The position numbers were made by a program, and so were the translations under genes. Under the pieces are notes generated by a model. The model saw only the letters and a program-made list of their open reading frames with translations, was not told the DNA's origin and ran no database searches. A stretch of DNA of 64,000 nt from Phormidium sp. FACHB-1136 (GTDB lineage: Bacteria > Cyanobacteriota > Cyanobacteriia > Phormidesmidales > Phormidesmidaceae), in the NCBI RefSeq assembly GCF_014697375.1, contig NZ_JACJRS010000001.1, positions 62,001-126,000 of the forward strand, given 5' to 3'. Positions 9,489 to 63,548 of this stretch are shown here, piece after piece (positions within the stretch are counted from its first letter, which is position 1; each line of letters begins with the position of its first letter).

Positions 9489-9570
9489 GGGGTTAGGTTT
9501 CGGTGAAGTAGGGTTCGGTATAGAAATAGAGGTCGGGTATTACCCACCCTCTATTTCCAAAGGTAGCGTA

Positions 9571-9597
9571 GGGTGCATTCGCGAAGCAATGCACCAC
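9571..9597. repeat. Isolated hairpin copy of the interspersed repeat
   Basis: GGTGCATT and AATGCACC arms flank a CGCGAAGC loop. This is the same hairpin that opens the longer repeat copy at 12964, with one base different in the loop. It lies between the small membrane gene and the psbT terminator. Confidence 0.75.
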
Positions 9598-9617
9598 ATC
9601 CAAGCATGTCCATGAAC

Positions 9618-11862: not shown

Positions 11863-12165
11863 ATGGCTACTATTAAGTTTCTTAACGAAGACCAAGAGAT
11901 CATCGTGGCCAATGGGGCGAACCTGCGGTTCAAGGCGCTGGAGAATCGTATTGATCTATACACCTTCAGCGGCAAGCTGATGAACTGTGGCGGCTATGGC
12001 CAGTGCGGCACCTGCATTGTGGATGTGGTGGAGGGGGGCGAGAACCTGTCCCCCCGGACAGCGGTGGAGGAGCGCAAGCTGAAGAAGTGGCCCAGCACCT
12101 GCCGTTTGGCCTGCCAAGCCACGGTGAACGGCCCCGTCACCGTCGTCACCAAGCCCAAACGTTAG
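11863..12165 (+). CDS. 2Fe-2S ferredoxin
   Basis: A 100-residue ferredoxin fold protein starting [11 protein letters not shown]. The cluster ligands are in [10 protein letters not shown] (a C-x5-C-x2-C spacing) plus a distal Cys in CRLACQ. The x5 spacing differs from photosynthetic PetF (x4) and is like adrenodoxin-type proteins, so it is probably not the main PSI acceptor. AAGGAG lies nine bases before the ATG. It is divergent from psbB; I recall this type of ferredoxin near psbB in other cyanobacteria. The redox partner is unknown. Confidence 0.9.
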
Positions 12166-12166
12166 A

Positions 12167-12199
12167 GCCAGTAGGAGCGAGGTCGCCTCGTCCGCTGGC
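12167..12199 (+). terminator. Stem-loop after the ferredoxin gene
   Basis: GCCAG and CTGGC form outer arms, and GCGAGG/CCTCGT inner arms, directly after the ferredoxin stop. No T-run follows, so it is either a Rho-dependent end or a 3' stabilising hairpin. Confidence 0.45.
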
Positions 12200-12299
12200 A
12201 CTGGGGGCAACCCACCAGATTTACTACCAGCTTTGAGAACCGATAGTCTCTGGAATTCACCCCCACCCCTTCCTGGTGCAGCGTCGCTCAGGTGAGCGG

Positions 12300-12365
12300 G
12301 GCATTGCGGCAAAGCGGTTTTACCGCAGGAGCAAAAGAGGGTGCCGCCTCGCATACCCCATCGCT
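12300..12365. repeat. Degenerate right-half copy of the interspersed repeat (copy C)
   Basis: From GCATTGCGGCAAAG through the TTTTACCGCAGGAGC segment to CGCATACCCC, this stretch aligns with the right half of the copy at 13665. It lies just upstream of the first DUF4160 gene. The left hairpin is missing. Confidence 0.65.
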
Positions 12366-12413
12366 ACATCACCAGAGGATAGGATAAAGGGGTCGCCGCC
12401 CAAGATTCGGACT

Positions 12414-12683
12414 ATGCCTGTCATCTCGATGTTCTATGGGGTAATCGTACTGATGTATTTCTTCGATAACCGGAAGCATCATCAGCCCCATATTCATGGG
12501 AAATACCAGGGCGAAGAAGCCGTGATCTCAATTCCAGATGGCTTGGTCTTGGAGGGGAAGCTACGCAGTTCTAAACTAAAGCTGGTACTGGCTTGGGTTG
12601 AGATTCATCAAGACGAGTTGATGGCAAACTGGGAATTAGCGATTGCAGGCGAGCAAATTTTCAAAATTGAGCCGTTGCGATAG
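12414..12683 (+). CDS. DUF4160 protein, pair 1
   Basis: An 89-residue protein with the DUF4160 signature: PVISMFYG, then an HHQPHIHGKYQGEEA histidine block, and a C-terminal helix with EIHQDELMANWELA. DUF4160 genes are nearly always followed by DUF2442, and the pair has been suggested to be a toxin-antitoxin-like module, without firm proof. The start was set at MPVISM because the open frame upstream is repeat DNA. The partner gene follows after 10 bases. Confidence 0.85.
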   Translation: MPVISMFYGVIVLMYFFDNRKHHQPHIHGKYQGEEAVISIPDGLVLEGKLRSSKLKLVLAWVEIHQDELMANWELAIAGEQIFKIEPLR

Positions 12684-12693
12684 GAGTAGAAAT

Positions 12694-12954
12694 ATGATGT
12701 CTCCTAAAGTGATTAAGGTAGAAGCCCTAGAAAATAGCTGTCTACGATTATTTTTTGAAAACGGCGAGACTCGAATTTTTGATGCTTCTACCTATCTAGA
12801 CAGGGGATTTTTTAAGGAGTTACAAAATAGTCACTACTTCAAGCAGGCTAAACCTTTCTTTGGCGGTGTGCAGTGGCCTCACGAGCAAGATTTTGGCCCA
12901 GATACTCTATTCCTAGAAAGCACCCTAGAAAGCGTTTGGGATGTAGCAGGATAA
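12694..12954 (+). CDS. DUF2442 protein, pair 1
   Basis: An 86-residue DUF2442 protein with KVIKVEALENSCLRLFFENGE, then FDASTYLDRG and GGVQWPHEQDFGPDTLF. AGGAG lies just before two adjacent ATGs, of which the first was chosen. It forms a two-gene unit with the DUF4160 gene. The base composition is AT-richer than most of the window, which suggests acquisition. The biochemical role is unknown; a DNA- or protein-binding partner for DUF4160 is the usual guess. Confidence 0.85.
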   Translation: MMSPKVIKVEALENSCLRLFFENGETRIFDASTYLDRGFFKELQNSHYFKQAKPFFGGVQWPHEQDFGPDTLFLESTLESVWDVAG

Positions 12955-12963
12955 TGAACTGTG

Positions 12964-13116
12964 GGGTGCATTCGCAAAGCAATGCACCAAAGCCCACATA
13001 AAAAGAAATTCGTAGCGGGTGGGGTGTTGGTGGCCGAGAGGGTGGTGCATTGCGGCAAAAGGGGGTTTTCTCTCAGGGCCTAAGGATTGTGGTGCTGCGA
13101 ATGCAGCCTACGAATT
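12964..13116. repeat. Interspersed ~150-bp repeat, copy A
   Basis: It begins with the hairpin GGTGCATT-CGCAAAGC-AATGCACC and runs through AAAGAAATTCGT, a GGTGGGGTG tract, GGTGCATTGC and GGATTGTGGTGC to CCTACGAA. It aligns with copy B at 13665-13819 in the same orientation over nearly its full length. It separates the two DUF4160/DUF2442 pairs. Confidence 0.85.
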
Positions 13117-13390
13117 ATGGGTAGGATTTAAGGCTAGATTGGAGTGGAAATTGTTCTGGATGTTGGATGATTTCTAGGGAAAGATCAACATCGAGATCGG
13201 GCCAGTAGAGGTGACCAGGATGGGGTTCCTCTACATTGAAGATATGTTTGATAGGGGCATCCTGAAACCAAGGAAACTGGTCATAGGGCAAGAAGTATTC
13301 TTGATCATCATGGATTAACCATAGGCCATGTTTTGAGATATTGCTAACTTCCAGGTTTGAAATGGTTATTCCAGGCATTTTTGAAGTCAT
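13115..13390 (-). CDS. DUF2442 protein, pair 2
   Basis: A 91-residue DUF2442-like protein with ITISNLEVSNISKHGLWL, EYFLPYDQFPWFQDAP and HLYWPDLDVDLSLE blocks. I chose the ATG at 13390 because a GAGGAG site lies seven bases upstream of it. The gene overlaps the end of its DUF4160 partner by 47 bases, so the two are tightly coupled. It is distinct in sequence from the pair 1 protein, so this looks like an independent second acquisition and not a fresh duplication. Confidence 0.82.
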   Translation of the reverse strand: MTSKMPGITISNLEVSNISKHGLWLIHDDQEYFLPYDQFPWFQDAPIKHIFNVEEPHPGHLYWPDLDVDLSLEIIQHPEQFPLQSSLKSYP

Positions 13391-13586
13391 CACAATACTC
13401 CTCAATGAGTTGCTCAATTTGCTTAAGCTGCATTCTAGAAAGCTTGTAGTTTGTGGCTAACTCGATATCGGGTTCTAGCCAAAATTTTGCTTCTCCATCG
13501 GCACAGGAAACATGAATGTGAACTCGGCTTTCTTCTCTAGAGAAGAAATAAAACCGATAGGGGCCAATTTTTAGGATGGTTGGCAT
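13344..13586 (-). CDS. DUF4160 protein, pair 2
   Basis: An 80-residue DUF4160 protein: PTILKIGPYRFYFFSREE, then the VHIHVSCADGEAKFWLEP histidine block, and a C-terminal helix with QLKQIEQLIEEYCDDF. It is the first gene of the minus-strand pair. Similarity to the pair 1 DUF4160 is limited to the family signature. The role is unknown, as for pair 1. The AT-rich composition sets it apart from the flanking GC-rich genes. Confidence 0.85.
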   Translation of the reverse strand: MPTILKIGPYRFYFFSREESRVHIHVSCADGEAKFWLEPDIELATNYKLSRMQLKQIEQLIEEYCDDFKNAWNNHFKPGS

Positions 13587-13664
13587 ACGTTCGACGGAAA
13601 AAATTTTACTCGCTGGTCTCGCGAGTGATGTCTTTATCCTAGCTTTCTGTCCCTCAACCGTCTA

Positions 13665-13819
13665 GGGTTGGCTAACGCCAACGCGAAGCAATGCACCAAA
13701 GCCCAGACAAAGAGAAATTCGTGATGGGTGGGGTGGTGGCCGAGGTGGCGGTGCATTGCAGCAAAAGAGGTTTTTACCGCAGGGGCGAAGGATTGTGGTG
13801 CCGCGAATACGCCCTACGG
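13665..13819. repeat. Interspersed ~150-bp repeat, copy B
   Basis: It aligns with copy A (12964-13116) from the GCGAAGCAATGCACCAAAG segment to the end near CCTACGG, with scattered substitutions and a few indels. The left arm of the opening hairpin is altered. It lies between the second DUF4160 gene and the kinase-GUN4 gene. Confidence 0.85.
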
Positions 13820-13836
13820 ACTGAAGTGCTTATTTG

Positions 13837-15174
13837 CTAAAGGTTACAAGTTTCTGTGCGAGAGAAGAGAAGTATGTCTCCCCCCACTCTCCCCCCTCCC
13901 CATCCCGGAAATTCTCCGATGGGGGAAAAGTAAGGGTTTGCTTTTAGGTCTTCGTAGTGCAGGTAAGAATCACCCTTGCGCCAACCGACGCGATTACAAA
14001 ACTCATGCCAGACTTGATCACCTGGATACTTTCCATTCAGTTCGGCACCAGATTTTACATAAATTTGCTTTTGTACGCTAAAGCCAAACTTGCCTTGGCT
14101 GTATTGCATCCACAGCCCATCAATGGTGCGTAAATCGGTACAGGGAAAGTTCAGCAATTCATCTCTGGTAAACCACTCGCCAGACTTTTTGCCCACAGCA
14201 CGAATCATTACCTCATAGGTTTCTTTATCGGCAGCACGCCACTTTCCAACTTTAAGGAGGTTGCGTAGGCGCGTGTAGTTAATACCTTTGTCGGAACGGA
14301 GGTCATCTAGATCTGCCACCGCTCTCCCTACTACAAACGGAACTAGCACCTTTTCCAAGGCTTGCAAGGCGTCTTTACCACTAGCATAACGACGGCCATA
14401 GCGACCACACACCATGTTGTTCAGCACATTTGCCAATGCATCACTGACTTTCACCCCTTTGCGCCACACCACATCCAGGGTGTTGGGATCGAAATCTAAA
14501 TCACAGGCATAACGGCCTGTTAGGGCTTCAATGGCGACCATTCCTAGGGCATAAACATCACTCGCGGGGCAAGGTTTTCCTCGGATTTGCTCAAAGGGGG
14601 TATAGCCTTCGGTGCCAATGCTGACAGTGGTAGCCATGAGCCTAGATTGGGGCTGGGCCATGAGTCCAAGCTGTTGGGCGGAAAATTCTTTTACAATGCC
14701 AAAATCAATCAGGCACAGCACTCCATCCTGGCGGCGGATCAGGTTTTCGGGTTTGATGTCGCGGTGGATGACGCCTTGCTGATGCACATAGCTCAGCACC
14801 GTTAGCCCCTGGTGTAGTAGGGTGATGACTTCGTTTTCGGGCAAGCGATTTACGGACTGAAGTTCGTCGCGGAGGGTGCGGCCTTCAATGAAGTCTTGGA
14901 CGATGTAGAAGTTGCCGTTTTCTTCCAAATGCGCTAGCAGCAGCGGAATTTGGTCATGGCGACCGAGGCGTTCTAGGATGGCGGCTTCTTGGTCAAACAG
15001 GCGGCGGGCGACCTGCCACCCATCGGCGGAAAACTTACGCTGGGGCTGGAGTTGCTTGACCACGCAGCGGGGTTGTCCAGGGCGGCGCAGGTCTTTGGCG
15101 AGATAGGTGATGCCAAATCCCCCGGAACTGAGGGGTTTGATGACTTCGTAGCGCCCGTCGATGAGTTGGGTCAT
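13837..15174 (-). CDS. Serine/threonine protein kinase fused to a GUN4 domain
   Basis: A 445-residue protein. Residues about 8-270 are a Hanks-type kinase: glycine loop LSSGGFGITY, Lys40, HRDIKPEN (139 as catalytic Asp), DFG at 157-159, and GTEGYTPFEQ in the activation segment. Residues about 290-445 are a GUN4 domain, with YTRLRNLLKVGKWRAADKET, FPCTDLRTIDGLW and KFGFSVQKQIY. Free GUN4 binds protoporphyrins and stimulates magnesium chelatase. The fusion suggests that tetrapyrrole binding or a GUN4-like fold regulates the kinase. No transmembrane segment is seen. The target protein is unknown. Confidence 0.92.
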   Translation of the reverse strand: MTQLIDGRYEVIKPLSSGGFGITYLAKDLRRPGQPRCVVKQLQPQRKFSADGWQVARRLFDQEAAILERLGRHDQIPLLLAHLEENGNFYIVQDFIEGRTLRDELQSVNRLPENEVITLLHQGLTVLSYVHQQGVIHRDIKPENLIRRQDGVLCLIDFGIVKEFSAQQLGLMAQPQSRLMATTVSIGTEGYTPFEQIRGKPCPASDVYALGMVAIEALTGRYACDLDFDPNTLDVVWRKGVKVSDALANVLNNMVCGRYGRRYASGKDALQALEKVLVPFVVGRAVADLDDLRSDKGINYTRLRNLLKVGKWRAADKETYEVMIRAVGKKSGEWFTRDELLNFPCTDLRTIDGLWMQYSQGKFGFSVQKQIYVKSGAELNGKYPGDQVWHEFCNRVGWRKGDSYLHYEDLKANPYFSPIGEFPGWGGGRVGGDILLFSRTETCNL

Positions 15175-15438
15175 GGCCGTGCTGGGGAAAGCATTGGGGG
15201 AGATATGGTTTTAGCTTACCCAGTCTGTCCAGGGAAATCACGGGGGTAGGGGTGCGGCTTCTGGGGCAAGGGGGCTGGGGGCGGTTGTCCAGGGTGCTGA
15301 ATGTGGGTGAGGACGACCGGGATCGAGCGGTTGTCGGCGTATCCCTATTTTTCCTGGCAGGGAGAGTGATATTCTAAAGGCGTTATAGATGATCGCCTGG
15401 TCGAGCATCCTTTTGGTTGAGAGTAGAGGCAAGCGCTC

Positions 15439-15549
15439 ATGGAAGTTAACAAGCTCGGTTTTGTGGCCAGCATTCTTTTTGTGTTGGTGCCCACGGTGTT
15501 CCTGCTAATTCTGTATATCCAAACCTCCAGTAAGCAAACCGGGGCCTAG
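15439..15549 (+). CDS. psbM: Photosystem II protein PsbM
   Basis: A 36-residue single-span protein beginning [16 protein letters not shown], with the [10 protein letters not shown] core and a short polar tail. PsbM sits at the PSII dimer interface next to PsbT and helps stabilise the dimer. The whole length matches the family, including the invariant VPT motif. The gene is monocistronic, with a terminator 67 bases downstream. The upstream 264-base gap to the kinase gene holds its promoter and nothing else I can support. Confidence 0.95.
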
Positions 15550-15615
15550 CCTTGGTTTTCGGTGGATGGATTGAATAGATCGCCAAAATCAGGTTATCCG
15601 GTGATAGTACAAAGG

Positions 15616-15642
15616 GCGCTGGCAATTGTCAGCGCTTTTTTA
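15616..15642 (+). terminator. Rho-independent terminator of psbM
   Basis: GCGCTG and CAGCGC pair across a GCAATTGT loop, followed by TTTTTT. It ends 26 bases before the next gene. Confidence 0.9.
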
Positions 15643-15667
15643 AGGAGTACGGACTATCGTAGGTGCT

Positions 15668-16447
15668 ATGACGTATTGCTTAGGGATATTGGCCCAGTCG
15701 GGGCTGGTGCTGGCGGCGGATTCTCGCACCAATGCCGGAGTAGACTACATTTCCTCCTACCGCAAGCTGTTTGATTTCTCGCTGCCGGGGGAGCGGGTGA
15801 TCCTGCTTTGCACCTCAGGCAACCTCTCCGTGACCCAGGGGGTTGTTCACACCCTCAGCCAGGATATCAAGGCCAACCAAGCCGCCAACCTGCACACATT
15901 GCCCACTATGTACGACGTGGCCCGCTATGTCGGGAAGCAAATTCGGGCTATGCAGGAAGTGGATCGGGCCTGGTTAGAGAAGGATCGCATTGATTTTCAG
16001 TGCAGCTTTTTGGTGGGGGGGCAGATTATGGGAGAAGAACCCGCCCTGTTTTTGGTCTACAGCCAGGGCAACTGCATCCAGGCCACCCCAGAAACGCCCT
16101 TTTTGCAAATTGGCGAAACCAAATACGGCAAGCCCATCCTAGACCGCACCATTCGCTTCGATGCACCCCTGGATGCCATCGCCAAGTGCGCCCTACTGTC
16201 CTTGGATAGCACCATGCGGTCGAACCTGTCCGTGGGGCCACCGATCAACATGACGATGTACCAGGCAGATAGCTTTGCGGTCAAGCACCGCGCCCAGTTC
16301 CATGCTGGCGATCCCTACCTGCTAAAAATGCGGAAACATTGGGAAGTCTCCCTGCGGGAAGCCTCCGCCAGTATGCCCGACATCGACTGGAATCAATCCG
16401 AAGATAGTTCGATCCCCACCGAAACCGCCGACTTGGAGAAGAACTAG
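15668..16447 (+). CDS. Anbu, proteasome-like N-terminal threonine hydrolase
   Basis: A 259-residue protein that begins MTYCLGIL, so removal of Met exposes Thr as the nucleophile. The conserved AADSRTNAGVD stretch and a later Lys33 fit the Thr/Asp/Lys catalytic set of proteasome-type Ntn hydrolases. Anbu proteins form open or stacked ring assemblies related to HslV. They are often encoded with a transglutaminase-like protein, an alpha-E protein and an ATP-grasp protein; none of these is next to it here. The neighbours are psbM and a phosphopantetheinyl transferase. Substrates and an ATPase partner are not known. Confidence 0.92.
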   Translation: MTYCLGILAQSGLVLAADSRTNAGVDYISSYRKLFDFSLPGERVILLCTSGNLSVTQGVVHTLSQDIKANQAANLHTLPTMYDVARYVGKQIRAMQEVDRAWLEKDRIDFQCSFLVGGQIMGEEPALFLVYSQGNCIQATPETPFLQIGETKYGKPILDRTIRFDAPLDAIAKCALLSLDSTMRSNLSVGPPINMTMYQADSFAVKHRAQFHAGDPYLLKMRKHWEVSLREASASMPDIDWNQSEDSSIPTETADLEKN

Positions 16448-16542
16448 CGCGTCAGTTCAGAAACCCATGTTCAGGCACCCAGCTTCTGCCCTGGTTGAGC
16501 CAAAATCTGGTACGCTTCTCAAAAACCGGGTTGCTAGTCGTT

Positions 16543-17295
16543 CTACCTTTCATCCTTCAAGGCGAGGGCGGCAACATAGCCCGCTGTGGGTTGCCACTGG
16601 TAGATCTGCCAGCCCGGTTCTAGTCCCTGAGTCGCTTCAATCCACTGAGGTTCTGTGGACTGAGGGTTCGCCAGAGTCAGATTTATAGTCTTGAGGGGAA
16701 TCGTTAGCCCTACCCCAAGCCCTTTCACGTAGGCTTCCCTGCACGTCCAATACCGTAGAAATTGGGTTTGAGCTTGATCCTGCGACAAGGACAACACGGT
16801 AGAAGATTCGTGTTCACTGAGATAGCGGTGGCAGAGTTGAGATAACCGCTGACGGGGCTGAATCGGCTCGATGTCAATCCCGACGGCGTGGCGATCCCTG
16901 AGGGCAATCATCAGCCAGTCGCCGCCGTGGGAGAGGTTGAACTGAAGGCTGGGATCTTCCACCAAAAACGGTTTACCATGGGGGCCAGTGCCAAGGGTGA
17001 GACGCTTGGCAGGTTGCCCCGTGACCTGGCTCAGCCATTGCCGCAGCAGGGTGCGGCTCGCTAAAAACGTATGCCGCCGCTGTTGGTGATGAATACGATC
17101 AGCCTGGGCTTGCTCCGCTGGGCTGAGCAGATTTGGCCTGGGATCGACAGCCGTAAGGGGTACGGCCATCACCGCGCTATCCGCCACCTGCCAAACTTGC
17201 GCCGATGGATCGGGGGATCGCGGAAACAGCCTATCGGAGTGGGAACTACGGGATAAGGCATATCCACGTTGTCCGTAGGGATCGTGATGGGGCAT
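16543..17295 (-). CDS. 4'-phosphopantetheinyl transferase (Sfp/HetI type)
   Basis: A 250-residue protein with the two PPTase motifs: VGIDIEPI (metal-binding Asp and Glu) and WTCREAYVKGLGVGL. A KPFLVEDPSLQFNLSHGGDW stretch precedes them. It transfers phosphopantetheine from CoA to carrier proteins of fatty-acid, polyketide or peptide synthesis; in cyanobacteria one broad-range Sfp/HetI enzyme usually serves all. No biosynthetic cluster is adjacent. The N-terminal ~40 residues are poorly conserved, so the true start may be an inner Met. Confidence 0.9.
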   Translation of the reverse strand: MPHHDPYGQRGYALSRSSHSDRLFPRSPDPSAQVWQVADSAVMAVPLTAVDPRPNLLSPAEQAQADRIHHQQRRHTFLASRTLLRQWLSQVTGQPAKRLTLGTGPHGKPFLVEDPSLQFNLSHGGDWLMIALRDRHAVGIDIEPIQPRQRLSQLCHRYLSEHESSTVLSLSQDQAQTQFLRYWTCREAYVKGLGVGLTIPLKTINLTLANPQSTEPQWIEATQGLEPGWQIYQWQPTAGYVAALALKDER

Positions 17296-17374
17296 CGGTC
17301 GAATTTCGGCATTACTACGGAGTTAGGATAGAGGGAGTGTTCTGCATTTTCTATTCCTGAATCAGGGTATCGCC

Positions 17375-18601
17375 TTGCCCGCGTCATCGTCGTCGTCCTC
17401 CCCTGCCGATCCCCATCTCCCCCAGCCCCACGTTTGCATTGTGGGCGGCGGGTTTGGCGGGCTCTACTGTGCCCTGGCCCTCCAGCGTTACCAGCGGCGG
17501 TCGGCCCCGACCTTTCGGATTACCCTCGTAGAGCCGAGGGAACGTTTTTTATTTACGCCCTTGCTCTACGAGGTGTTGACCGACGAGTTGAAGCCCTGGG
17601 AAATTGCCCCCAGCTACCACGAGTTGCTCCGTCCCTACGCCATTCATCACTGCCAAGACTGGGTAGAACAGATTGACGTTCACCATCAGCACGTTACCCT
17701 GCGGCGAGGTGAACCGCTATCCTACGACTATCTTGTGGTGGCCACAGGCAGCCGTCTGAAACCTCCGGTCACAGAGGGCAGTCACCATGCGCTCCCCTTC
17801 AACACCCTAGAGGATACCTGGGCGCTAGAAAAACGACTGGCGGAACTCGAACCCACCGCCACAGAAGCCAATCCCATCCATATTGTGGTGACAGGGGCGG
17901 GGCCAAGCGGGGTAGAACTCGCCTGTAAATTGGCGGATCGCCTAGGACGGCGGGGCCACATCACGGTGCTAGATCGGCGGGCGGTGATTTTGCGATCCCA
18001 CTCCCTGGCCATTCAGCGGGTAGCCTCTAAGGCGATGGCGAAGCGGGGCATTGAGGTGTTTACCGACGTCGCCCTTGAAGCAGTGAAGGCGGATCAGGTG
18101 ATCTACCATCACGCTGACCGCGCTCACCATTGCCCTGCCGATATTGTGGTGTGGACGGTGGGCACCATTCCGCAGCCCTGGCTAGGGGTAGAGATTCCCA
18201 AGCAGTCCCCTTTGGCCCAATGCCTGGTCAAACCGACCCTGCAACTGCTGGACTACGAGAACGTCTTTGTGCTGGGTGATATCGCCGAAATGCCTGGGCC
18301 AAAAAAGAGCCGCGCCCCGATGACGGCCCAAGCCGCCTATCAGGCCGCTCCCATTGTGGCCCATAATCTTTGGGCCAGTGTCCACCGTCGTCCCCTGCGA
18401 CCCTTCCACTATCACCACCTGGGCAATATGCTCACCCTGGGCAAGGGCGAAGCCGTGGTGCATGGTTTCGGAATTTGCCTCACCGGACGAGTGGGGGCTA
18501 TCGCCCGTCGCTGGGGCTATTGGCTGAGGTTGCCCACCTTCCACCATCGCTGGCAAGTGTTCAAGCACTGGCTAGGATGGAAGGGACGGCGAAAAACCTA
18601 A
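17375..18601 (+). CDS. Type-2 NAD(P)H dehydrogenase (NDH-2 family)
   Basis: A 408-residue flavoprotein with two Rossmann sites, VCIVGGGFGGLYCA (FAD) and IVVTGAGPSGVELA (NAD(P)H), plus the NDH-2 blocks FTPLLYEVL, YDYLVVATGS and FVLGDIAE near the C-terminus. NDH-2 oxidises NAD(P)H and reduces quinone without pumping protons. One cyanobacterial branch (NdbB/NDC1) reduces demethylphylloquinone, and this could be that branch, but I cannot decide. No ATG precedes the conserved region, so a TTG at 17375 is the best start; this is unusual and uncertain. Confidence 0.88.
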   Translation: MPASSSSSSPADPHLPQPHVCIVGGGFGGLYCALALQRYQRRSAPTFRITLVEPRERFLFTPLLYEVLTDELKPWEIAPSYHELLRPYAIHHCQDWVEQIDVHHQHVTLRRGEPLSYDYLVVATGSRLKPPVTEGSHHALPFNTLEDTWALEKRLAELEPTATEANPIHIVVTGAGPSGVELACKLADRLGRRGHITVLDRRAVILRSHSLAIQRVASKAMAKRGIEVFTDVALEAVKADQVIYHHADRAHHCPADIVVWTVGTIPQPWLGVEIPKQSPLAQCLVKPTLQLLDYENVFVLGDIAEMPGPKKSRAPMTAQAAYQAAPIVAHNLWASVHRRPLRPFHYHHLGNMLTLGKGEAVVHGFGICLTGRVGAIARRWGYWLRLPTFHHRWQVFKHWLGWKGRRKT

Positions 18602-19147
18602 TTATTTTTTATCGGTGGTTTCAAACTTGTAGGCATGGTCTTGCAGGAGGCTGCTGACCTGGTTGAGAACACTGTCGTCCGCTTTCTTTTGGATGGTTTG
18701 ACGTTCGGGAAAGAATTCGGGTTTATCGAGGTTGCGAGCGATGGCTTGGCGCACTTGCTCGGCAATCAGATCGGCCAGTTCCCCACGGGCGGTATCTCGC
18801 TGGAAGTTGGCCCCTTCCTCGGTGGTGGCGTAGAGGGGGGGCAGGCGGTTGAGGGCGTAGGCGGCAATATCACCCAAATCTAGGGTCGTATCCGAGGCCG
18901 CTTCAATTTCGGCCACCCGCGAGATGGCCTCCGTCAGCACCAGTTCTTCCATCACGTTGATGAACTGTTTGCGCGGTACAGCCACCACTTCCCCCGTCAG
19001 CAGGGCACCCATGAGACGGTCGAGGGCCATGTATTCTTCGATGGAAAGCTCAGAGGCCGTATCACAAATGCGGCCCACCTCGGCTTCCATGGCGGGAGTT
19101 AAGTAGCCATCTTGCAGGGCCTGCTCAACGATTTTTTCAATAGTCAT
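18602..19147 (-). CDS. ComFB-family protein, likely cyclic-dinucleotide receptor
   Basis: A 181-residue soluble protein. The core (about 40-140), with MALDRLMGALLTGEVV, INVMEELVLTEAI, DIAAYALNRLPPLYATTEEG and FQRDTARGELADLIAEQVR, is the ComFB (late competence) fold. Cyanobacterial ComFB-type proteins have been reported to bind c-di-GMP or c-di-AMP; transfer of that property to this one is inference. The stop directly abuts the NDH-2 stop (convergent). hfq lies upstream on the same strand, 157 bases away. No DNA-binding domain is visible. Confidence 0.85.
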   Translation of the reverse strand: MTIEKIVEQALQDGYLTPAMEAEVGRICDTASELSIEEYMALDRLMGALLTGEVVAVPRKQFINVMEELVLTEAISRVAEIEAASDTTLDLGDIAAYALNRLPPLYATTEEGANFQRDTARGELADLIAEQVRQAIARNLDKPEFFPERQTIQKKADDSVLNQVSSLLQDHAYKFETTDKK

Positions 19148-19249
19148 TTGGCCAAACGCTCCATTACTTTGTGAGGGTGAGCAGCGGAGGCTGCTGGGAA
19201 ACTGGCGAGATCATTGCCGGGGGTATCTACGGAGGATAGTGTGCCCTAA

Positions 19250-19300
19250 TTGCCTAGGGGGGGCAACCAGAAACTGCCATGATTTACATCCCCTAGGCAA
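19250..19300 (-). repeat. 11-bp perfect inverted repeat downstream of hfq
   Basis: TTGCCTAGGGG (19250-19260) and CCCCTAGGCAA (19290-19300) are perfect reverse complements separated by 29 bases, starting four bases past the hfq stop. No T-run follows in the hfq direction. It may be the transcript end of hfq or a relic of a small element. Confidence 0.65.
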
Positions 19301-19303
19301 CCA

Positions 19304-19513
19304 TCAATACTTCATAAAGCCAATGGCTTGTTTCCAAATCTGGTGTTTCCCTTGATTCTCCACCTCTAGACAAATGCAGTGGGGATCTTGCCAAATCACC
19401 CGCCCAGAGATCAAATCCCCCGTCAAAAGTTTAACCTCAACGGGTTTCTTATCGCGAATGAGGGTTTGAACTTGGCGAACACTTGGAAATCCAGTCGCGA
19501 ACTCTTGGGACAT
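19304..19513 (-). CDS. hfq: Hfq (cyanobacterial Sm-like protein)
   Basis: A 69-residue Sm-like protein. The Sm1 part has PVEVKLLTGDLISGRVIWQDPHCICLEV and the Sm2 part IWKQAIGFMKY, matching the short cyanobacterial Hfq type, which has a divergent RNA-binding surface. In Synechocystis Hfq is needed for type IV pilus motility through interaction with PilB1. Its usual neighbour dapF lies divergently upstream, as here. The start was set at MSQEF; an upstream ATG at 19534 would add seven residues. Confidence 0.92.
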   Translation of the reverse strand: MSQEFATGFPSVRQVQTLIRDKKPVEVKLLTGDLISGRVIWQDPHCICLEVENQGKHQIWKQAIGFMKY

Positions 19514-19706
19514 GGTAGCGGAGACCATCGACATCGACTGACTTTACGTTACCCCGAACTCGCCCGTTCGGCGTGATTGGGTGGCAAATTGTTAAAAAGC
19601 GTTGGGCGTCCTGACATAGGGGGGATGGGCGCAGGGGGGAGGGTTGAGATTCATGGATATTCGTTAATAATTAAAGAATTCATTTTTATAGCATGGGCGG
19701 CAGGCA

Positions 19707-20555
19707 ATGGACTTTAGCAAGTATCACGGGCTGGGGAACGACTTTATTTTGGTGGACAATCGCCATCAATCGGAACCGCTGATTCCCCCGGAAACCGCCG
19801 CCACCTGGTGTGATCGCCACGTTGGTATTGGGGCCGATGGGGTGATTTTTGCCCTGCCAGGTCAAAACGGCACCGACTACACCATGCGCATCTACAATTC
19901 CGATGGATCGGAGCCAGAGATGTGCGGCAACGGCATTCGCTGTTTGGCCAAGTTCCTCGAAGCCCTAGAAATCGCTGATGGTAAAGCACTTCAGGCTCCC
20001 CACACCTACCGCATCCACACCCTAGCTGGGGTGATCTCTCCCACCCTGCAAGCCGATGGCCAAGTGACCGTGGATATGGGCACGCCGATCCTGCTGGCGA
20101 AGGATATTCCGACCACGCTAGGAACCCCCGATGACAAGGTGGTTGGCCTACCCCTCGCCGTGGCGGATCAGGACTGGGCCGTCACCTGTGTGAGCATGGG
20201 CAACCCCCACTGCATCACCTTTGTGGAGGATGTCGCCGCCATTGACCTCGAAAAAATTGGCCCCCAGTTTGAGCATCACCCTGCCTTTCCCCAGCGCATC
20301 AACACCGAGTTTATCCAGGTGGTGCGGCCCGATTACCTGAAAATGCGGGTGTGGGAACGGGGGGCTGGCATTACCCTGGCCTGTGGAACGGGGGCTTGTG
20401 CTTCTCTGGTGGCGGGGGTACTAAATGGCCGTTGTGATCGAGCGGCGACGGTGGAACTGCCCGGTGGCCCCCTCAAAATTGAGTGGTCGGCGGCGGATGA
20501 TCGCATTTATATGACTGGCCCTGCCCAATTGGTCTTTCGCGGCGTTGTCGCCTAA
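19707..20555 (+). CDS. dapF: Diaminopimelate epimerase
   Basis: A 282-residue epimerase converting LL- to meso-diaminopimelate for lysine and peptidoglycan synthesis. The two catalytic Cys are in [12 protein letters not shown] and [10 protein letters not shown]. It begins [18 protein letters not shown], a family hallmark, so the start is firm. It is divergent from hfq, a conserved cyanobacterial arrangement. The length is normal. Confidence 0.97.
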
Positions 20556-20730
20556 GCAGGTTGTGCTGGGTGGTGGGTAGGGCCACCCTAGGCTAGGAGA
20601 CTCGCGCAACGTGGTATTCGTCGGAAATTTCTTAACCTAAGAACTGGCTGCACCATATCGGTCGCACAGCGGTAGACTGACAGGCTGGAGTTACCCCCCT
20701 GGGCGTCTGTTTCCGCCTAGGCGTCTGTTT

Positions 20731-21654
20731 ATGACTGAGGGCGCATATCAACGTCGTACCAGCTATCGCCTGCTGCTAGCGACCCTTTGGGCTACGCTGC
20801 TGCTGCTGGCGGTGGAGGTAATTGGGGGATGGGCGACCGGATCCCTGACCCTATTGGCGGAGTCGTTGCATACCCTGATTGATGGCTTCAGCACGATTCT
20901 GAGCCTGGTGGCCGTGACTTCGCCCCAACGCCAAATGGGCCGAGAGGTGTGGGGCCACGGACGGGGAGAAGTGGCGGCCACGCTGATTCTGTGCGCCTTT
21001 TTGGGATTTACGGGCATCAGCCTGCTGTTCATTGCCCTCCGTCATCTGTGGGACGGGCTGAATGGCATCGCCGATCCTTTCCCGGTTACCCTCGATACCC
21101 AGGTTCTACGGCTAACGGCATTGATGGTGATTGTGAACGTGGCTCTGGGAGTCTACGCCAATTATCAGGCCCGCAGCCTTAATAGTCTGGCCTTGCGGCT
21201 GAATACTCAGCATTTTCTGACCGATGTCTGGCTGAGCTTGGTGATGGTGGCGGTGCTGTTGGCCATTCACTACAACCAGCACTGGCTCGATCCCGTCTTT
21301 GCCCTGGGGTTGTTGTCCTTGGTGGCCAGAAGCCTGTGGCGAGTACTCAACGAACAGCTACCGATGCTCTTGCGACCCACGGCCATTGCCCCGGAGGCCA
21401 TCGCCCACCTCGTTACCCAGGTGGAAGGCGTCACCCGCTGCCAGCGAATTCGGTCGCGGGGCATGGTGGGCCGTCAGGTGTGGGTAGAACTGCACCTGGC
21501 CCTGCACCCTGAATATATGGAGCTGGCCGATGACATTGGCGAACAGATCGAAGCCCTGCTGCGTCGTCAGTATGGCCCCCTGCGCACCCAAATTTGGGTG
21601 GAACCCACCCGCCGCCAAGAGCAATACTGGGATCCGGGGTTGTCTGGGTATTAA
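20731..21654 (+). CDS. CDF-family divalent metal cation exporter
   Basis: A 307-residue protein with six membrane spans. Metal-site motifs are HTLID in span 2 and HFLTD in span 5 (HxxxD in each), a pattern fitting zinc. The C-terminal cytoplasmic domain (about 215-295), with VEGVTRCQRIRSRG and VELHLALHP, is the usual ferredoxin-like dimer domain. It exports Zn or a similar metal in exchange for protons. An 11-base direct repeat (GGCGTCTGTTT, 20702-20712 and 20720-20730) lies just before the ATG in place of a clear Shine-Dalgarno. Its stop overlaps the stop of the converging helicase by four bases. Confidence 0.9.
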   Translation: MTEGAYQRRTSYRLLLATLWATLLLLAVEVIGGWATGSLTLLAESLHTLIDGFSTILSLVAVTSPQRQMGREVWGHGRGEVAATLILCAFLGFTGISLLFIALRHLWDGLNGIADPFPVTLDTQVLRLTALMVIVNVALGVYANYQARSLNSLALRLNTQHFLTDVWLSLVMVAVLLAIHYNQHWLDPVFALGLLSLVARSLWRVLNEQLPMLLRPTAIAPEAIAHLVTQVEGVTRCQRIRSRGMVGRQVWVELHLALHPEYMELADDIGEQIEALLRRQYGPLRTQIWVEPTRRQEQYWDPGLSGY

Positions 21655-39966: not shown

Positions 39967-40052
39967 ATCAATCTCACCTCCTTTATAGCGGGGATAGAAA
40001 ACGTGATGCTCACGGACGGATGGCCACCATTCGTTATTTGCCAATTCTTCCC

Positions 40053-40190
40053 AAAACAAAGCCCCGACCAGATAGCCGGGGCAGACTCACGCTTGCCAAT
40101 CTCCAGAGCAGAACTGGAAACCTACATCGCAACGTCAACCTCGGCAGGATTTATGCAGAAAAAACGCACCTGCTGTCTACGGTCGTTTAT
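40053..40190 (-). ncRNA. L10 ribosomal-protein leader with attenuator hairpin
   Basis: On the minus strand the leader has GACAGCAGGTGC (40166-40177), then CCTGCCGAGGTTGACG (around 40133-40148), the conserved core of the L10 leader family. A downstream hairpin, GCCCCG...CGGGGC (40061-40082), is followed by TTTGTTTT, which looks like a transcription attenuator. The L10-L12 complex binds such leaders to control rplJL. It fills the 292-base gap between rplA and rplJ. Confidence 0.85.
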
Positions 40191-40258
40191 GCAGTTGTGA
40201 GGGACTAGGGCAATCGCGACTCCTTCGTGAAAATTTGAAGCTTGGACGCTAGCAGAAC

Positions 40259-45736: not shown

Positions 45737-46726
45737 ATGACTCAAACCACGACTTGGAACGAGGCCACCCGGCACCACGATTCCATCGGATCTGTGATCC
45801 GCAGCTATGTGCAGCTCACCAAGCCCCGGATTATCCCCCTGCTGCTGATTGAAACGGCGGCGGCGATGTGGGTGGCAGGCCACGGCGAAGTCAACGTTTG
45901 GCTGGTGCTGACGACGCTGCTGAGCGGGACCCTGGCGGCGGCGTCCGCCCAGACGATTAACTGCGTCTACGACCGCGATATCGACTTTGATATGGAGCGC
46001 ACCCGCCATCGTCCCATCCCCTCCGGGAGGATTCAGGTGCGGGACGCCCTAGTGTTTGCGGGTGTCCTAGCGGCCCTGGCCTTCGGGCTTCAGGCTTGGG
46101 TGGCTAACCTGCTCAGTGCCTTCCTGGCCATGGTGGGGATCGCCATTTATGTGGGGGTCTATACCACCTGGCTGAAGCGGTCTTCGCCCCAGAACATTGT
46201 GATTGGTGGAGCCGCCGGAGCGGTTCCGCCCCTGGTAGGTTGGGCCGCTGTCACCGGGGAACTCAGCCTCGCGGCTTGGCTATTCTTCTTCATTGTGTTC
46301 ATCTGGACGCCGCCTCACTTCTGGGGATTGGCCATGCTGATTCAAGATGACTACGCCAAGGTGAACGTGCCGATGATGCCCGTGATTGTGGGCGATGAAG
46401 CCACCGCTCGCCAAATTTGGTACTACACCCTAGTTTTGGTGCCCCTCACCCTGATGATGAGCTATCCCCTGGGTGCAACCGGGGCGGTCTATGCCTTGGT
46501 GGCCCTGGCCCTGGGGGCCAAATTCATCCAAAAAGCCTGGGCCTTGCTGAAGGCACCCAGCGACCGGGATTTAGCCAAGGGTCTGTTTAAGTATTCCATT
46601 CTGTACATGATGCTGCTGTCAGCGGGGATGGTGGTGGATAGCTGGCCCATCACCCAAAGCTGGACGGCACAATTATCGGGACAATTGGCGGGTCAACTGG
46701 CCCCTTTCGTGAGTCTGCTACCTTAG
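45737..46726 (+). CDS. ctaB: Protoheme IX farnesyltransferase (heme O synthase)
   Basis: A 329-residue UbiA-type prenyltransferase with nine or so spans. Metal-binding motifs are NCVYDRDIDFDMERT and DDYAKVNVPMMPVI; VQLTKPRIIPLLLIE and RHRPIPSG are family marks. It attaches farnesyl to heme B to make heme O, the substrate of CtaA. It is in an operon with ctaA. In many cyanobacteria ABC exporter genes follow directly, but here about 1.8 kb of other DNA intervenes. A decayed partial copy of it lies at about 48180. Confidence 0.97.
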   Translation: MTQTTTWNEATRHHDSIGSVIRSYVQLTKPRIIPLLLIETAAAMWVAGHGEVNVWLVLTTLLSGTLAAASAQTINCVYDRDIDFDMERTRHRPIPSGRIQVRDALVFAGVLAALAFGLQAWVANLLSAFLAMVGIAIYVGVYTTWLKRSSPQNIVIGGAAGAVPPLVGWAAVTGELSLAAWLFFFIVFIWTPPHFWGLAMLIQDDYAKVNVPMMPVIVGDEATARQIWYYTLVLVPLTLMMSYPLGATGAVYALVALALGAKFIQKAWALLKAPSDRDLAKGLFKYSILYMMLLSAGMVVDSWPITQSWTAQLSGQLAGQLAPFVSLLP

Positions 46727-48179: not shown

Positions 48180-48340
48180 AGGGAACTTAGCCTTGCCGCC
48201 AGGTTCTTCTTCATTGTGTTCATCTGGACGCCGTCCTACTTTTGGGGATTGGCGATTAGGTGGACAGGTCATATCCGTCGCAGGATGGCGACTTCGGTGT
48301 ATTGGTTCGGGTGACTGTCGTTGCTGGTGATGGTCAATGG
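48180..48340 (+). pseudogene. Decayed duplicated fragment of ctaB and of the adjacent PsbP-like gene
   Basis: The stretch 48182-48263 aligns with ctaB positions about 46257-46340, still translating as ELSLAARFFFIVFIWTPS. It then joins directly to 48260-48340, which aligns with about 46747-46822, the 3' end of the 46731 gene, in the same orientation. The ~400 bases between the two source segments are missing in the copy. Substitutions are scattered, so this is an old, internally deleted duplicate with no function expected. The surrounding gap (47858-48510) otherwise holds only the MITE and the start of the next gene's leader. Confidence 0.75.
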
Positions 48341-60608: not shown

Positions 60609-62044
60609 ACCAGCACCATTCCTAAAAGTCCTAAAATGGCTAGCGCCATAATGCCAATCAGATGCTCAAAATCTTCCAGCACACGGGGTAGCTTAATGGC
60701 TAGCCGACGAATGACAACTAGATATATCAACCAGCCCAAGAAAATTGTGGCCAGGGGTTTAATCACGTTATCCCAAGTGTAGGCTTCGTAATAGACTACA
60801 TTGGCCACCACTAGCCCCCCCAATAACAGAACCACTGCTGGCCAAAAGCCAGATTTAACCGCTTGGCTAGAATCAGATTTTTGGGGCAGAAAGATAAACT
60901 TGGCAAAGGAAATCGCTGTCCCTAGAGCTGCTAGGTTCATAGCTATCACTTGCCAATCCGCTAGGTTTTTCATGGTCAGCACCTTGGCCCCAAACCCCGA
61001 CAATAAAGGGAATCCAGAAATGGAGAAGCTGGCAATGACTAGGGCGATCCAAATGGGTCGATGAATGGGCTGATCATGCAAAACCTTAAAACTGCGACTT
61101 GGTAAGTTTCCAGCACAGAGAAACAAAGCAGCTTTCACAAATCCGTGGGTAAGGGCATAGAATCCACCCACCTCTGGGGCCGCTAATACAAACCCCATCT
61201 GGGAAATGGTGTGAAAGGCTAACATGCGCTTGGTGTCTTTTTCAAACATGGCATAGGCCACCCCAAAAAGGGCCGTAGCGACTCCAAATAGGCGCACCAG
61301 CGGGTCAAGTTCTCCGACTAGCAACGCCATGCGGGCCAGAGGGAAAACCCCAGCTTTTACCACCACCCCAGACAGCAGGGCCGAAACGGGACTTTCCGAC
61401 TCGGAATGGGTGAGGGGTAGCCATAGCCCCGATACAAAAATGCCGCCCTTGGTGAGCAGTCCTAATAGAATTAAAGCCTGGGCTTCGATAGGAGCACCCG
61501 CCAGCCCAGTAAAGGCAAAGGACTGGTGGGTTTGATAGAGCAAAATAGCCCCCACCAAATAGAACAGCATGGCCGTATTGCTAACAAATAGATAGCGCAA
61601 AGCGACCCATAGGGTTTTGTCGCTGCGAGGATAGGCAATCAGCAAAAAAGCAGCAATGCCAATCACCTCTAGGGCCACGTAGAGACTGATTAAATCGGCA
61701 CAAATAAAAGCAGCATTAACGCTGCCGTGCAAAATGATAGCCTGGGTATAGAAAAACGAGGTTTTTCCGCTGGGCCAACAGTAGAGAATTACCGCCGCCG
61801 TTACAAGAGCATTGGTCAGAATAAAAAAGGCACTGAGATCATCTACTAACAGCGTGACGCCAAAGCTATCGAGCAAGGTTAAACTTAGGGGAGCAGGCTG
61901 GGAAAAGACCACCATGGCGTAGGCCAAGGAAACCAGGGTAACCCCAAAGGCTAAAAGGCGAGCGGCCTGGGGAAGTAGATAAATGCTAAAGCCGATAAAA
62001 AACGGCAGTGTGACCCAAAGTAAAGAAATTAGCACCATCGCCAA
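60605..62044 (-). CDS. mrpD: Mrp antiporter subunit D, second copy
   Basis: A 479-residue protein with about 14 spans, homologous to NuoN/NuoM. It has SLYVALEVIGIAAFLLIAYPR, LTKGGIFVSGLWLPLTHSESESPVSALLSGVVVKAGVFPL, and FEKDTKRMLAFHTISQMGF, with the Lys/Glu residues typical of antiporter subunits. It is closely similar to the copy at 62097 along the whole length, so they are tandem duplicates. It conducts protons in the Mrp complex. Confidence 0.93.
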   Translation of the reverse strand: MAMVLISLLWVTLPFFIGFSIYLLPQAARLLAFGVTLVSLAYAMVVFSQPAPLSLTLLDSFGVTLLVDDLSAFFILTNALVTAAVILYCWPSGKTSFFYTQAIILHGSVNAAFICADLISLYVALEVIGIAAFLLIAYPRSDKTLWVALRYLFVSNTAMLFYLVGAILLYQTHQSFAFTGLAGAPIEAQALILLGLLTKGGIFVSGLWLPLTHSESESPVSALLSGVVVKAGVFPLARMALLVGELDPLVRLFGVATALFGVAYAMFEKDTKRMLAFHTISQMGFVLAAPEVGGFYALTHGFVKAALFLCAGNLPSRSFKVLHDQPIHRPIWIALVIASFSISGFPLLSGFGAKVLTMKNLADWQVIAMNLAALGTAISFAKFIFLPQKSDSSQAVKSGFWPAVVLLLGGLVVANVVYYEAYTWDNVIKPLATIFLGWLIYLVVIRRLAIKLPRVLEDFEHLIGIMALAILGLLGMVLV

Positions 62045-62096: not shown

Positions 62097-63548
62097 TTAC
62101 CACGACCATGACCAAGCCATCCAAAATACGAGAACTAACATCACGCTCATAGCGCCAATGAGATGTTCAAAGTTTTCCATCACCCTGGGTATTCTTAACG
62201 GCATCGTTCGTATCCATTGCCCCCAGATTAACCAGCCTGCACCAATTACTCCCAAGGCTTTGAGAGCATTGAACCAGGTGAGTGTTTGCGGCAGGTAGGC
62301 AAAATTCAGACCCACTAAAGCCGTCAGCAGTAGCAACAGTGCCACTCCTAATCCAGGATTTTTGATGAAGGCTTGGGAGTCATGGCTACGGTGAGGTAAA
62401 AAGATGAATTTGGCATAGAGAATTGCGGTTCCCACGGCAGCGAGATTGAGCACCCAGCTTTGCCAGGGCAAAACCGCCTTGAGTGTTAACATTTTGGTGC
62501 TAAATCCAAGGAACAACGGAAACCCTGAAATCGAGAGACTAGCTAGGGTAATGGGGAGCCAAAGCCGAGTGTCGATGGGATTTTGGCGCAGGATGGGGAG
62601 GTCGCGACTAGGCAAGTTACCCACCCCAAGGAAGAGGGCCGCTTTACCAAGGCCATGGGCCAAGGCATAGGGGCCAGCCACGCTGGGAGCGACTAAAATC
62701 CAGCCCAACTGCGACAGGGTGCTACAAGCCAGCACGCGCTTGGTATCGCGGTCAAAGAGGGCATAGAGCACCCCCAGAAACGCCGCCGCCATGCCAAACA
62801 ACCTCACGAGGGGAAGCAACTCCTCCATCATGAGGGCACAGCGCACCAGGGGAAACACCCCGGCCTTGACGACCACCCCAGACAGCAGAGCTGATACCGG
62901 GCTTTCCGACTCCGCATGGGTGAGGGGGAGCCACAACCCCGACACAAAAATCCCCCCTTTGGCTAGCAGTCCCACCACAATCAAAACCAGCGCTTCAAGG
63001 GGGGCATTGAGCAGCCCAGAAAAGGCAAAGGACTGATTGGTTTGGTAGACCAAAATGGCTCCTACCAAGTAAAACAGCATAGCCGTATTGCTAATAAATA
63101 GGTAGCGTAGAGCCACCCATAGCGTGCGGTCTTGACGGGGGTAAGCTACCAGAAGAAAGGCGGCAATTCCAATCACCTCCAGAGCCACGTATAGGCTCAT
63201 AAAATCAGCACAGATAAAGGCCGAGTTTAGACTGCCGTGGAGGACAATAGCTTGGGTGTAGAAAAATGACGTTTTTGGGGTGCGCCAACAATAGAGAATA
63301 ACCGCCGCTGTAACCAGAGTATTTGTGAGAATAAAAAAGGCACTTAGGTTATCAACGAGAAGGAGTACGCCAAAGCTATCCAGCAAGCTTAAACTCAGGG
63401 AAACCGGATACAGAAACACCCCTAGGGTGTAGGCCAAAGAAACCAGCGTTACCCCCAAGGCTAGGACACGGTCGGCCTTGGGCAGCAGATAAATGCTAAA
63501 CCCAGCTAACAGGGGCAGGGTAATCCAGATAACGGTAAATATCGTCAT
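62097..63548 (-). CDS. mrpD: Mrp antiporter subunit D, first copy
   Basis: A 483-residue protein of the same type as the next copy, with SLYVALEVIGIAAFLLVAYPR, LLAKGGIFVSGLW and DRDTKRVLACSTLSQLG. The two copies are about equally long, with a ~50-base gap between them. In cyanobacteria Mrp operons often have two D subunits, perhaps standing in for the large A subunit. The start overlaps the mrpC stop by four bases. Confidence 0.93.
   Translation of the reverse strand: MTIFTVIWITLPLLAGFSIYLLPKADRVLALGVTLVSLAYTLGVFLYPVSLSLSLLDSFGVLLLVDNLSAFFILTNTLVTAAVILYCWRTPKTSFFYTQAIVLHGSLNSAFICADFMSLYVALEVIGIAAFLLVAYPRQDRTLWVALRYLFISNTAMLFYLVGAILVYQTNQSFAFSGLLNAPLEALVLIVVGLLAKGGIFVSGLWLPLTHAESESPVSALLSGVVVKAGVFPLVRCALMMEELLPLVRLFGMAAAFLGVLYALFDRDTKRVLACSTLSQLGWILVAPSVAGPYALAHGLGKAALFLGVGNLPSRDLPILRQNPIDTRLWLPITLASLSISGFPLFLGFSTKMLTLKAVLPWQSWVLNLAAVGTAILYAKFIFLPHRSHDSQAFIKNPGLGVALLLLLTALVGLNFAYLPQTLTWFNALKALGVIGAGWLIWGQWIRTMPLRIPRVMENFEHLIGAMSVMLVLVFWMAWSWSW

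Follow-up and report, generated by a model that had tools for sequence, protein, structure and literature searches.

An accessory island between petF and psbM

The window analysed here is a stretch of 64,000 nucleotides from the 6.0-Mb draft genome (260 contigs) of Phormidium sp. FACHB-1136. Between petF and psbM, the latter assigned by eye, it carries two DUF4160/DUF2442 gene pairs, a kinase gene and three copies of one repeat family. The flanks of this stretch were aligned to G014, the closest relative, which lacks it. The alignments stop at window position 12196 and resume at 15331, and both edges correspond to position 1856 of the G014 locus (L112). The left and right alignments thus join at a single base of G014, which identifies 12197-15330 as an insertion of ~3.13 kb, and we estimate its edges to be good to ~15 nt. 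The petF proteins of both genomes are 98% identical. The stretch is a small accessory island of a Nodosilinea-group cyanobacterium and a clean insertion relative to G014. The first-pass annotation had drawn the unit too small; it extends over the whole of the insertion and includes the kinase gene.

The leftmost element is repeat C (12292-12359, plus strand), a right-half fragment of a REPIN-like element detected by profile match (27.3 bits). It is followed by pair 1 on the plus strand, which consists of T1 (12414-12683, 89 aa, DUF4160; PF13711, 5.7e-24), a DhiT-like toxin by analogy, and A1 (12694-12954, 86 aa, DUF2442; PF10387, 1.4e-10), an antitoxin by analogy. Repeat A (12955-13115, plus), a complete REPIN-like element, fills the whole interval between the stop codons of the two convergent pairs. 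Pair 2 lies on the minus strand with A2 (~13378 to 13115, ~87 aa, DUF2442; PF10387, 8.4e-15) and T2 (13586 to 13344, 80 aa, DUF4160; PF13711, 8.3e-17), again antitoxin and toxin by analogy. Repeat B (13658-13821, plus), a second complete element, lies upstream of T2 and past the 3' end of the kinase gene. Both complete copies were found by self-comparison and profile. The last gene (13837-15174, minus) encodes a Ser/Thr protein kinase with a C-terminal GUN4 domain (PF00069, 7.7e-31; PF05419, 5.2e-34). A single GTAG-REP of the same family (9567-9599, plus; pattern and profile) lies outside the island.

The two pairs that had been proposed, plus and then minus, are real, as all four proteins match PF13711 or PF10387. 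Their common gene order was also confirmed. The overlap style ascribed to both is not shared: a 10-nt gap separates the genes of pair 1 and those of pair 2 overlap by ~35 nt. Between repeat B and T2, a short palindrome at 13606-13628 scored as terminator-like on both strands in a scan with a total of 5 such sites, near the 3.8 expected by chance. Its position would suit an autoregulation operator, and by eye it is partly kept in G014. Speculatively, it may be the operator of pair 2.

In 21 of 22 same-genus loci read, a peptidase-like gene (window 15668) follows petF at a distance of 364-958 bp, and none of the 22 loci carried the pairs or the kinase at the petF site (tblastn, E 1e-4). G+C content is 42-47% over the pairs. 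Other 400-bp segments between 10000 and 17999 range from 51 to 63%, except for 47% at 14000-14399 in the kinase gene. No target-site duplication was seen by eye at the island ends, and the five main ORFs of 12197-15330 gave no transposase family match. Rfam at its gathering threshold returned no match within the island, and PADLOC, searched up to E 1 with the four pair proteins, gave no hit. Elsewhere in the window, a ribosomal protein L10 leader (40046-40200, minus; Rfam RF00557, 56.6 bits) was found as an expected known RNA.

The petF region is rearranged in the sister genome G021 (MAG Nodosilinea sp. BSH.14), where window 15272-21653 is inverted beside petF. Beyond the inverted end lies a piece that matches window 15162-15280 at 85% identity and comprises the start of the kinase gene with its upstream sequence, and a half REPIN follows ~0.24 kb further on. 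These remnants suggest that the island may be common to the window genome and G021 and missing in G014. Compared with window 12163-21653, the G021 contig (G021:C111, L234) shows an inversion of ~6.4 kb with one end at petF. The half REPIN a few hundred bases past the other inversion end suggests that REP or island DNA lay near the breakpoint.

Relation of the pairs to published toxin-antitoxin modules

Modules of this type have been studied by experiment in two other bacteria. In Dickeya dadantii, the account of dhiTA (PMC8198452), as far as accessible, states that the DUF4160 protein inhibits growth of D. dadantii and Escherichia coli, that co-expression of its partner abolishes the effect, and that the antitoxin and the toxin-antitoxin complex repress the promoter. 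According to the same text dhiTA brought no gain in plasmid maintenance in E. coli, where only ccdAB2 did so. For a Thermus plasmid, the accessible part of PMC12724237 reports that deletion of the DUF2442 ORF alone yielded no T. thermophilus transformants. There, the module raised plasmid persistence; in E. coli no effect of its ORFs was apparent. DUF4160/DUF2442 is moreover given as a predicted toxin-antitoxin pair in a survey table of a marine MAG (PMC12654330, in the part available). By analogy with these organisms, the toxin-antitoxin-like nature suggested by the first-pass annotation is supported as to type.

The arrangement of the window pairs was compared with that of other loci. The genome holds five DUF4160 genes, and DUF2442 lies beside all five. 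DUF2442 directly followed DUF4160 in 32/32 loci read by profile, of which three are from this genome and 29 from relatives; the latter were those listed among more matches and were read for ~1.5 kb on each side, some being ended by contig ends. Among 81 additional loci, taken from genome contigs (80) and a Thermus plasmid, 78 showed the same order. Of the remaining three, one did not extend far enough for a judgement, a second combined a DUF2442 match with a misplaced toxin match, and the third had no DUF2442. Both window pairs have the two domains in adjacent genes with the toxin gene first. A folded alignment was made from 28 of the 80 loci and the two window proteins, leaving out L318, L326 and L334 because of in-frame stop codons. 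Residues M1, P2, H26 and H28 of DUF4160, an MP start and an HxH motif, were invariant in 26 of 26 aligned proteins, both window proteins included. A nuclease reading of the HIH motif of the toxin is a guess.

Similarity to the characterized modules is uneven. The NCBIfam DhiT equivalog NF048015 has a cut-off of 100 bits, and T1 reached 88.3 and T2 18.5 bits. Since both toxins fall below it, we use the label DhiTA-like and do not call them DhiT. Over 88 aa, T1 shares 42% identity with the DUF4160 protein of the Thermus plasmid NZ_AP025612.1 (from Murakami, Japan), where a DUF2442 gene follows the DUF4160 gene. This is probably the module tested in PMC12724237. T2 had no usable blastp similarity to the Thermus toxin (13.5 bits), and none was found by blastp between A1 and the Thermus antitoxin. 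A PDB sequence search gave best E values of 0.14 for T1 and 0.098 for A2. The AlphaFold model of T1 had a mean pLDDT of 90.3, with no Foldseek match better than E 0.5 and a best VIA-align Z of 4.5; these scores are too weak to show either a known or a new fold.

Judged by domains and gene order, both pairs belong to the published type II toxin-antitoxin type of dhiTA and the Thermus persistence module, not to a new kind. As in D. dadantii 3937 and in the T. thermophilus plasmid, the DUF4160 toxin gene comes first and the DUF2442 antitoxin gene second (PMC8198452, PMC12724237; both as far as accessible). The Dickeya genes, in contrast, overlap by 3 nt, unlike the gap of pair 1 and the 35-nt overlap of pair 2, and the accessible text on Dickeya mentions no REP (PMC8198452). 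The Thermus module differs, according to the part of its description available, in being plasmid-borne, whereas the window pairs are chromosomal, and T2 and A1 have diverged too far from it for blastp.

DUF2442 genes were also seen on their own. Three lie in tandem at G000:C79:48618-49555 (L139) with no DUF4160 match alongside, and contigs C217, C16 and C179 of the window genome carry more DUF2442 genes without DUF4160.

The repeat family and its neighbours

Repeats A and B share 80% of their bases across 92 nt and 86% across 58 nt. With a profile built solely from two copies elsewhere in the genome they scored 48.0 and 47.8 bits, respectively. As a control, 500 dinucleotide shuffles of the stretch 12197-12413 were scored, and these reached at most 1.4 bits. 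Repeat C scored 27.3 bits, or 7.0 when the window copies were left out of the profile, and 0/500 shuffles reached either value. Boundary repeats of one family had been proposed on all three sides of the pairs. This holds for A and B, which are complete and alike; C is real but only the right-half fragment.

Repeat A contains a 24-bp palindrome at 12965-12988. Genome-wide this core was found at 12 exact and six one-mismatch places, while the reversed control pattern gave 0. Among the 18 palindrome places, 17 distinct copies were read. In 14 of the 17, GTAG immediately adjoins one end only, which is the same end in each case, and no copy has it at both. Repeat A itself has GTGG at this position and hence lacks the exact tag. 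A short palindrome, GTAG at one end only and many copies are the marks of GTAG REPs. In the wider family, the palindrome (22 bases, at most one mismatch) was present in 26 of 60 genomes, including 21 of 23 of the same genus. Longer units of ~120-160 bp, near-complete by profile, are A, B and the copies on C10, C113, C33, C168 and C81; A, B, C10 and C113 had served to build the profile, and these four therefore match by construction. The units have two inverted REP ends, as seen by eye, and are capable of forming a hairpin, which is the structure of a REPIN. DNA folding of repeat A gave z -3.5, with 2/200 shuffles folding equally well, and RNA folding of repeat B gave z -1.9. The terminator-like scan found no site in repeat A or B.

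On C113, a REPIN-like unit lies directly upstream of a gene for a 181-aa Y1 transposase with HVH and WYTAMCFN motifs. It matched Y1_Tnp with 54.6 bits and the NCBIfam RAYT model with 49 bits against a cut-off of 80, and is hence termed RAYT-like. No REP was seen downstream of it by eye or profile (L134). In this region (G000:C113:48408-49330), the RAYT-like gene stands between the REPIN and a 790-aa ORF. The GUN4-like end of the latter shares 47% identity across 223 aa with the C-terminal part of the window kinase, and its remainder is unmatched. In the window (13817-14116), repeat B joins the GUN4 end of the kinase gene directly, as if it were the C113 unit without the RAYT. Two direct repeats elsewhere in the window, 46283-46335 with 48204-48256 (53 nt, 91%) and 61331-61630 with 62841-63140 (300 nt, 78%), are probably duplicated genes.

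REPINs with their RAYT are a miniature mobile DNA class of paired REPs. The present family differs from it in that some units of the window genome lie between toxin-antitoxin modules, and its mobility here is a candidate property. The GTAG-tagged REP superfamily is known from cyanobacteria, and its REPs mostly follow coding regions and lie between ORFs that are unidirectional or convergent (PMC3733652, accessible part). Its description there agrees with ours in the palindrome with GTAG at one end, the occurrence as singletons and dimers and the RAYT gene near copies; the window genome differs in its moderate copy number (~18 palindromes). The repeat is thus a GTAG-tagged REP, present singly or as a head-to-head, REPIN-like dimer. 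As this class is already published, like the toxin-antitoxin type, the idea of an undescribed modular system is not supported. A REP-bounded exchange of toxin-antitoxin modules was not found described, at the level of titles and abstract starts, among the papers listed from the open-licence PMC literature.

The repeat in general is not linked to DUF4160 pairs. Three of the five pairs of this genome (C225, C100 and C48) have no close copy, with a weak match ~790 nt from the C225 pair. Among the 29 loci of relatives read from the matches listed, a copy is near two (in G021 and G014) and absent at 27, and the other two DUF4160 loci of G014 have no REP nearby. A genome search for the repeat, as had been suggested, found it scattered, and the neighbouring families among the matches listed are mostly metabolic or photosynthetic. 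Such scattering is one of the two outcomes that the first-pass annotation had named as speaking against its proposal.

Enrichment of toxin-antitoxin genes in general beside the repeat was considered and not accepted. Excluding repeats A-C and including the REP at 9567 and the RAYT site, 19 other copies were evaluated. Within 600 bp of at least 3/19 (47 ORFs), genes of this type were found, namely HepT with a nucleotidyltransferase, DUF2281 or HicB. As a control, 20 random intergenic stretches were drawn from contigs of known length, some of them overlapping, and one gapless stretch was dropped. The 19 control sites (45 ORFs) gave none among the matches listed. The difference is not significant (one-sided Fisher P 0.11, or 0.05 with DUF6883 included as a fourth case). 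The scans report families and not members, so that the assignment to sites was made by eye. The lists comprised the best 25 of 26 families for one case set and the best 25 of 79 and 25 of 31 families for two of the three control sets, so that the controls may hide a toxin-antitoxin match. Uma2 occurred in both case and control sets.

Turnover of modules and the part of the repeats

Besides the insertion relative to G014, the strain comparison for gain, loss or swap that the first-pass annotation had called for revealed each pair with a neighbouring repeat at another site in one sister genome. Window 12412-12994, comprising pair 1 with the first REP of repeat A, has a counterpart of 83% identity at G021 C96:4521-5100, flanked by a UPF0047 gene and a HicB gene. 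The corresponding site of the window genome, on C10, holds a complete REPIN and no pair. In G014 the order at the UPF0047 site is NAD synthase, MazE, a PemK/MazF-like gene, a half REPIN, a REPIN part, HicB and HicA; by eye, the half REPIN is accompanied by an apparent 5' fragment of a RAYT gene. Pfam gave no match for this RAYT-like fragment or for an antitoxin-like fragment (HigA-like by eye) in G021. The next 230 bases after UPF0047 were compared for 15 among 25 loci. In 12/12 other relatives inspected, the gene after UPF0047 is the same throughout (by eye, an Era-type GTPase), the other three loci being those of G021, G000 and G014. Window 13127-13804, with pair 2 and repeat B, is 83% identical to a block in G014, flanked by a gene with a sub-threshold HSDR_N match and a DUF2281-like gene (by eye). 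The counterpart of these flanks in the window genome, on C78, has no pair and holds a DUF2281-PemK module instead.

One site thus occurs with a REPIN alone, with pair 1 and a REP, or with MazEF and a RAYT-like fragment, and we conclude that the repeats mark junctions where toxin-antitoxin modules changed. The non-syntenic blocks, one in each of two sister genomes, would agree with an exchange of pair-plus-repeat blocks, in which the repeats were probably carried along with the pairs and not inserted later. The proposal of cassette-like capture or exchange is hence partly right, although the repeat is not generally tied to such pairs.

We favour, at a probability of roughly 75%, the reading that the island, formed by accessory turnover with repeats at the block edges, holds two diverged DhiTA-like modules and a kinase-GUN4 gene, separated by complete REPIN-like elements, as well as a REPIN-like fragment close to its left end. 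By analogy with the two tested relatives, the DUF4160 protein would inhibit growth, and the downstream, co-transcribed DUF2442 protein would neutralise it and repress the operon. A DhiTA-like module may favour its own retention. Such modules would come and go at few tolerated sites, and REPs would ride along and often mark the joints. The location of REPs between genes, in places that tolerate rearrangements, would explain why repeats occur close to or at the ends of exchanged blocks, and REPs might possibly also promote rearrangements. Accessory-gene turnover is the simplest account. Against this reading count the lack of blastp similarity of T2 and A1 to their Thermus partners and the scores of both toxins below the DhiT cut-off. 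The evidence on retention also conflicts, since the Thermus module raises persistence and Dickeya dhiTA does not (PMC12724237, PMC8198452), and E. coli showed no apparent response to the Thermus ORFs (PMC12724237; both sources as far as accessible).

Alternatively, the repeats could serve as 3'-end hairpins. Repeat A would then insulate or stabilise the two convergent operon transcripts, and the tie to moving modules would be a by-product of where REPs are located. Its position between both stop codons fits this, as do the preference of REPs for the downstream side of coding regions described in the accessible part of PMC3733652 and the DNA folding of repeat A. However, neither repeat A nor B has a terminator-like site. 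Repeat B precedes T2 (and follows the kinase gene), and its RNA folding reaches only z -1.9. We regard this explanation as somewhat unlikely.

Pure hitch-hiking is unlikely. Here, the island would stem from one horizontal transfer, and the repeats would have been present in the donor DNA already or would be later random insertions. The lower G+C over the pairs speaks for it, as does the 89% identity between T1 and a protein from Leptolyngbya sp. PCC 6406 (G061), which belongs to another genus of the family. In contrast, the pairs differ in their nearest relatives, G021 for pair 1 and G014 for pair 2, at different sites, and the kinase 5' piece with its half REPIN is kept at the petF region of G021. 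Stepwise assembly therefore fits better than one event.

Another explanation would make the repeats active, with REP/REPIN elements bringing modules in and out through RAYT acting on REP-flanked single-stranded DNA or through REP-REP recombination. The pair-plus-repeat blocks at non-syntenic sites and the three forms of the UPF0047 site, in one of which MazE-PemK and the RAYT-like fragment stand beside HicB-HicA, support it. The four ends of the two homology blocks were compared with two blocks of this kind placed at random within the island: three lie within 15 nt of a repeat (P 0.038) and all four within 50 nt (P 0.015). At zero tolerance, however, two of the four are inside a repeat (P 0.13), the end at the T1 start being ~45 nt off, and these P values come from only two blocks by a test devised after they had been seen. 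Furthermore, such cassettes would be specific to this clade at best, as 27 of the 29 relatives' loci read from the matches listed have no copy although 21/23 same-genus genomes hold the palindrome, and the enrichment at other repeat sites was not significant. We consider this explanation improbable. In its widest form, with REPINs as exchange boundaries across which RAYT or REP recombination moves DhiTA, HicBA and MazEF among few chromosomal sites, a REP-based and integrase-free counterpart of a cassette array, it is very doubtful.

The preferred reading, accessory turnover, leaves an active role of REP or RAYT possible, on the basis of few events in one clade. The locus consists of mostly known parts in a mildly interesting arrangement. 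The six top genes with shared up-regulation under heavy metals and produced water in Synechococcus elongatus include a DUF4160 gene (PMC12727749, accessible part), and this may be a lead to a condition that induces such modules in cyanobacteria. If the repeats only mark tolerated sites, the island is a tidy case of accessory-gene turnover beside photosystem genes. If REPs do help to move modules, REP/RAYT systems would gain a role in cargo exchange, and small chromosomal toxin-antitoxin modules would have a conceivable means of spreading that needs neither integrons nor ordinary transposons. Such REP-driven exchange can be tested from the comparison of the three genomes at the UPF0047-HicB site.
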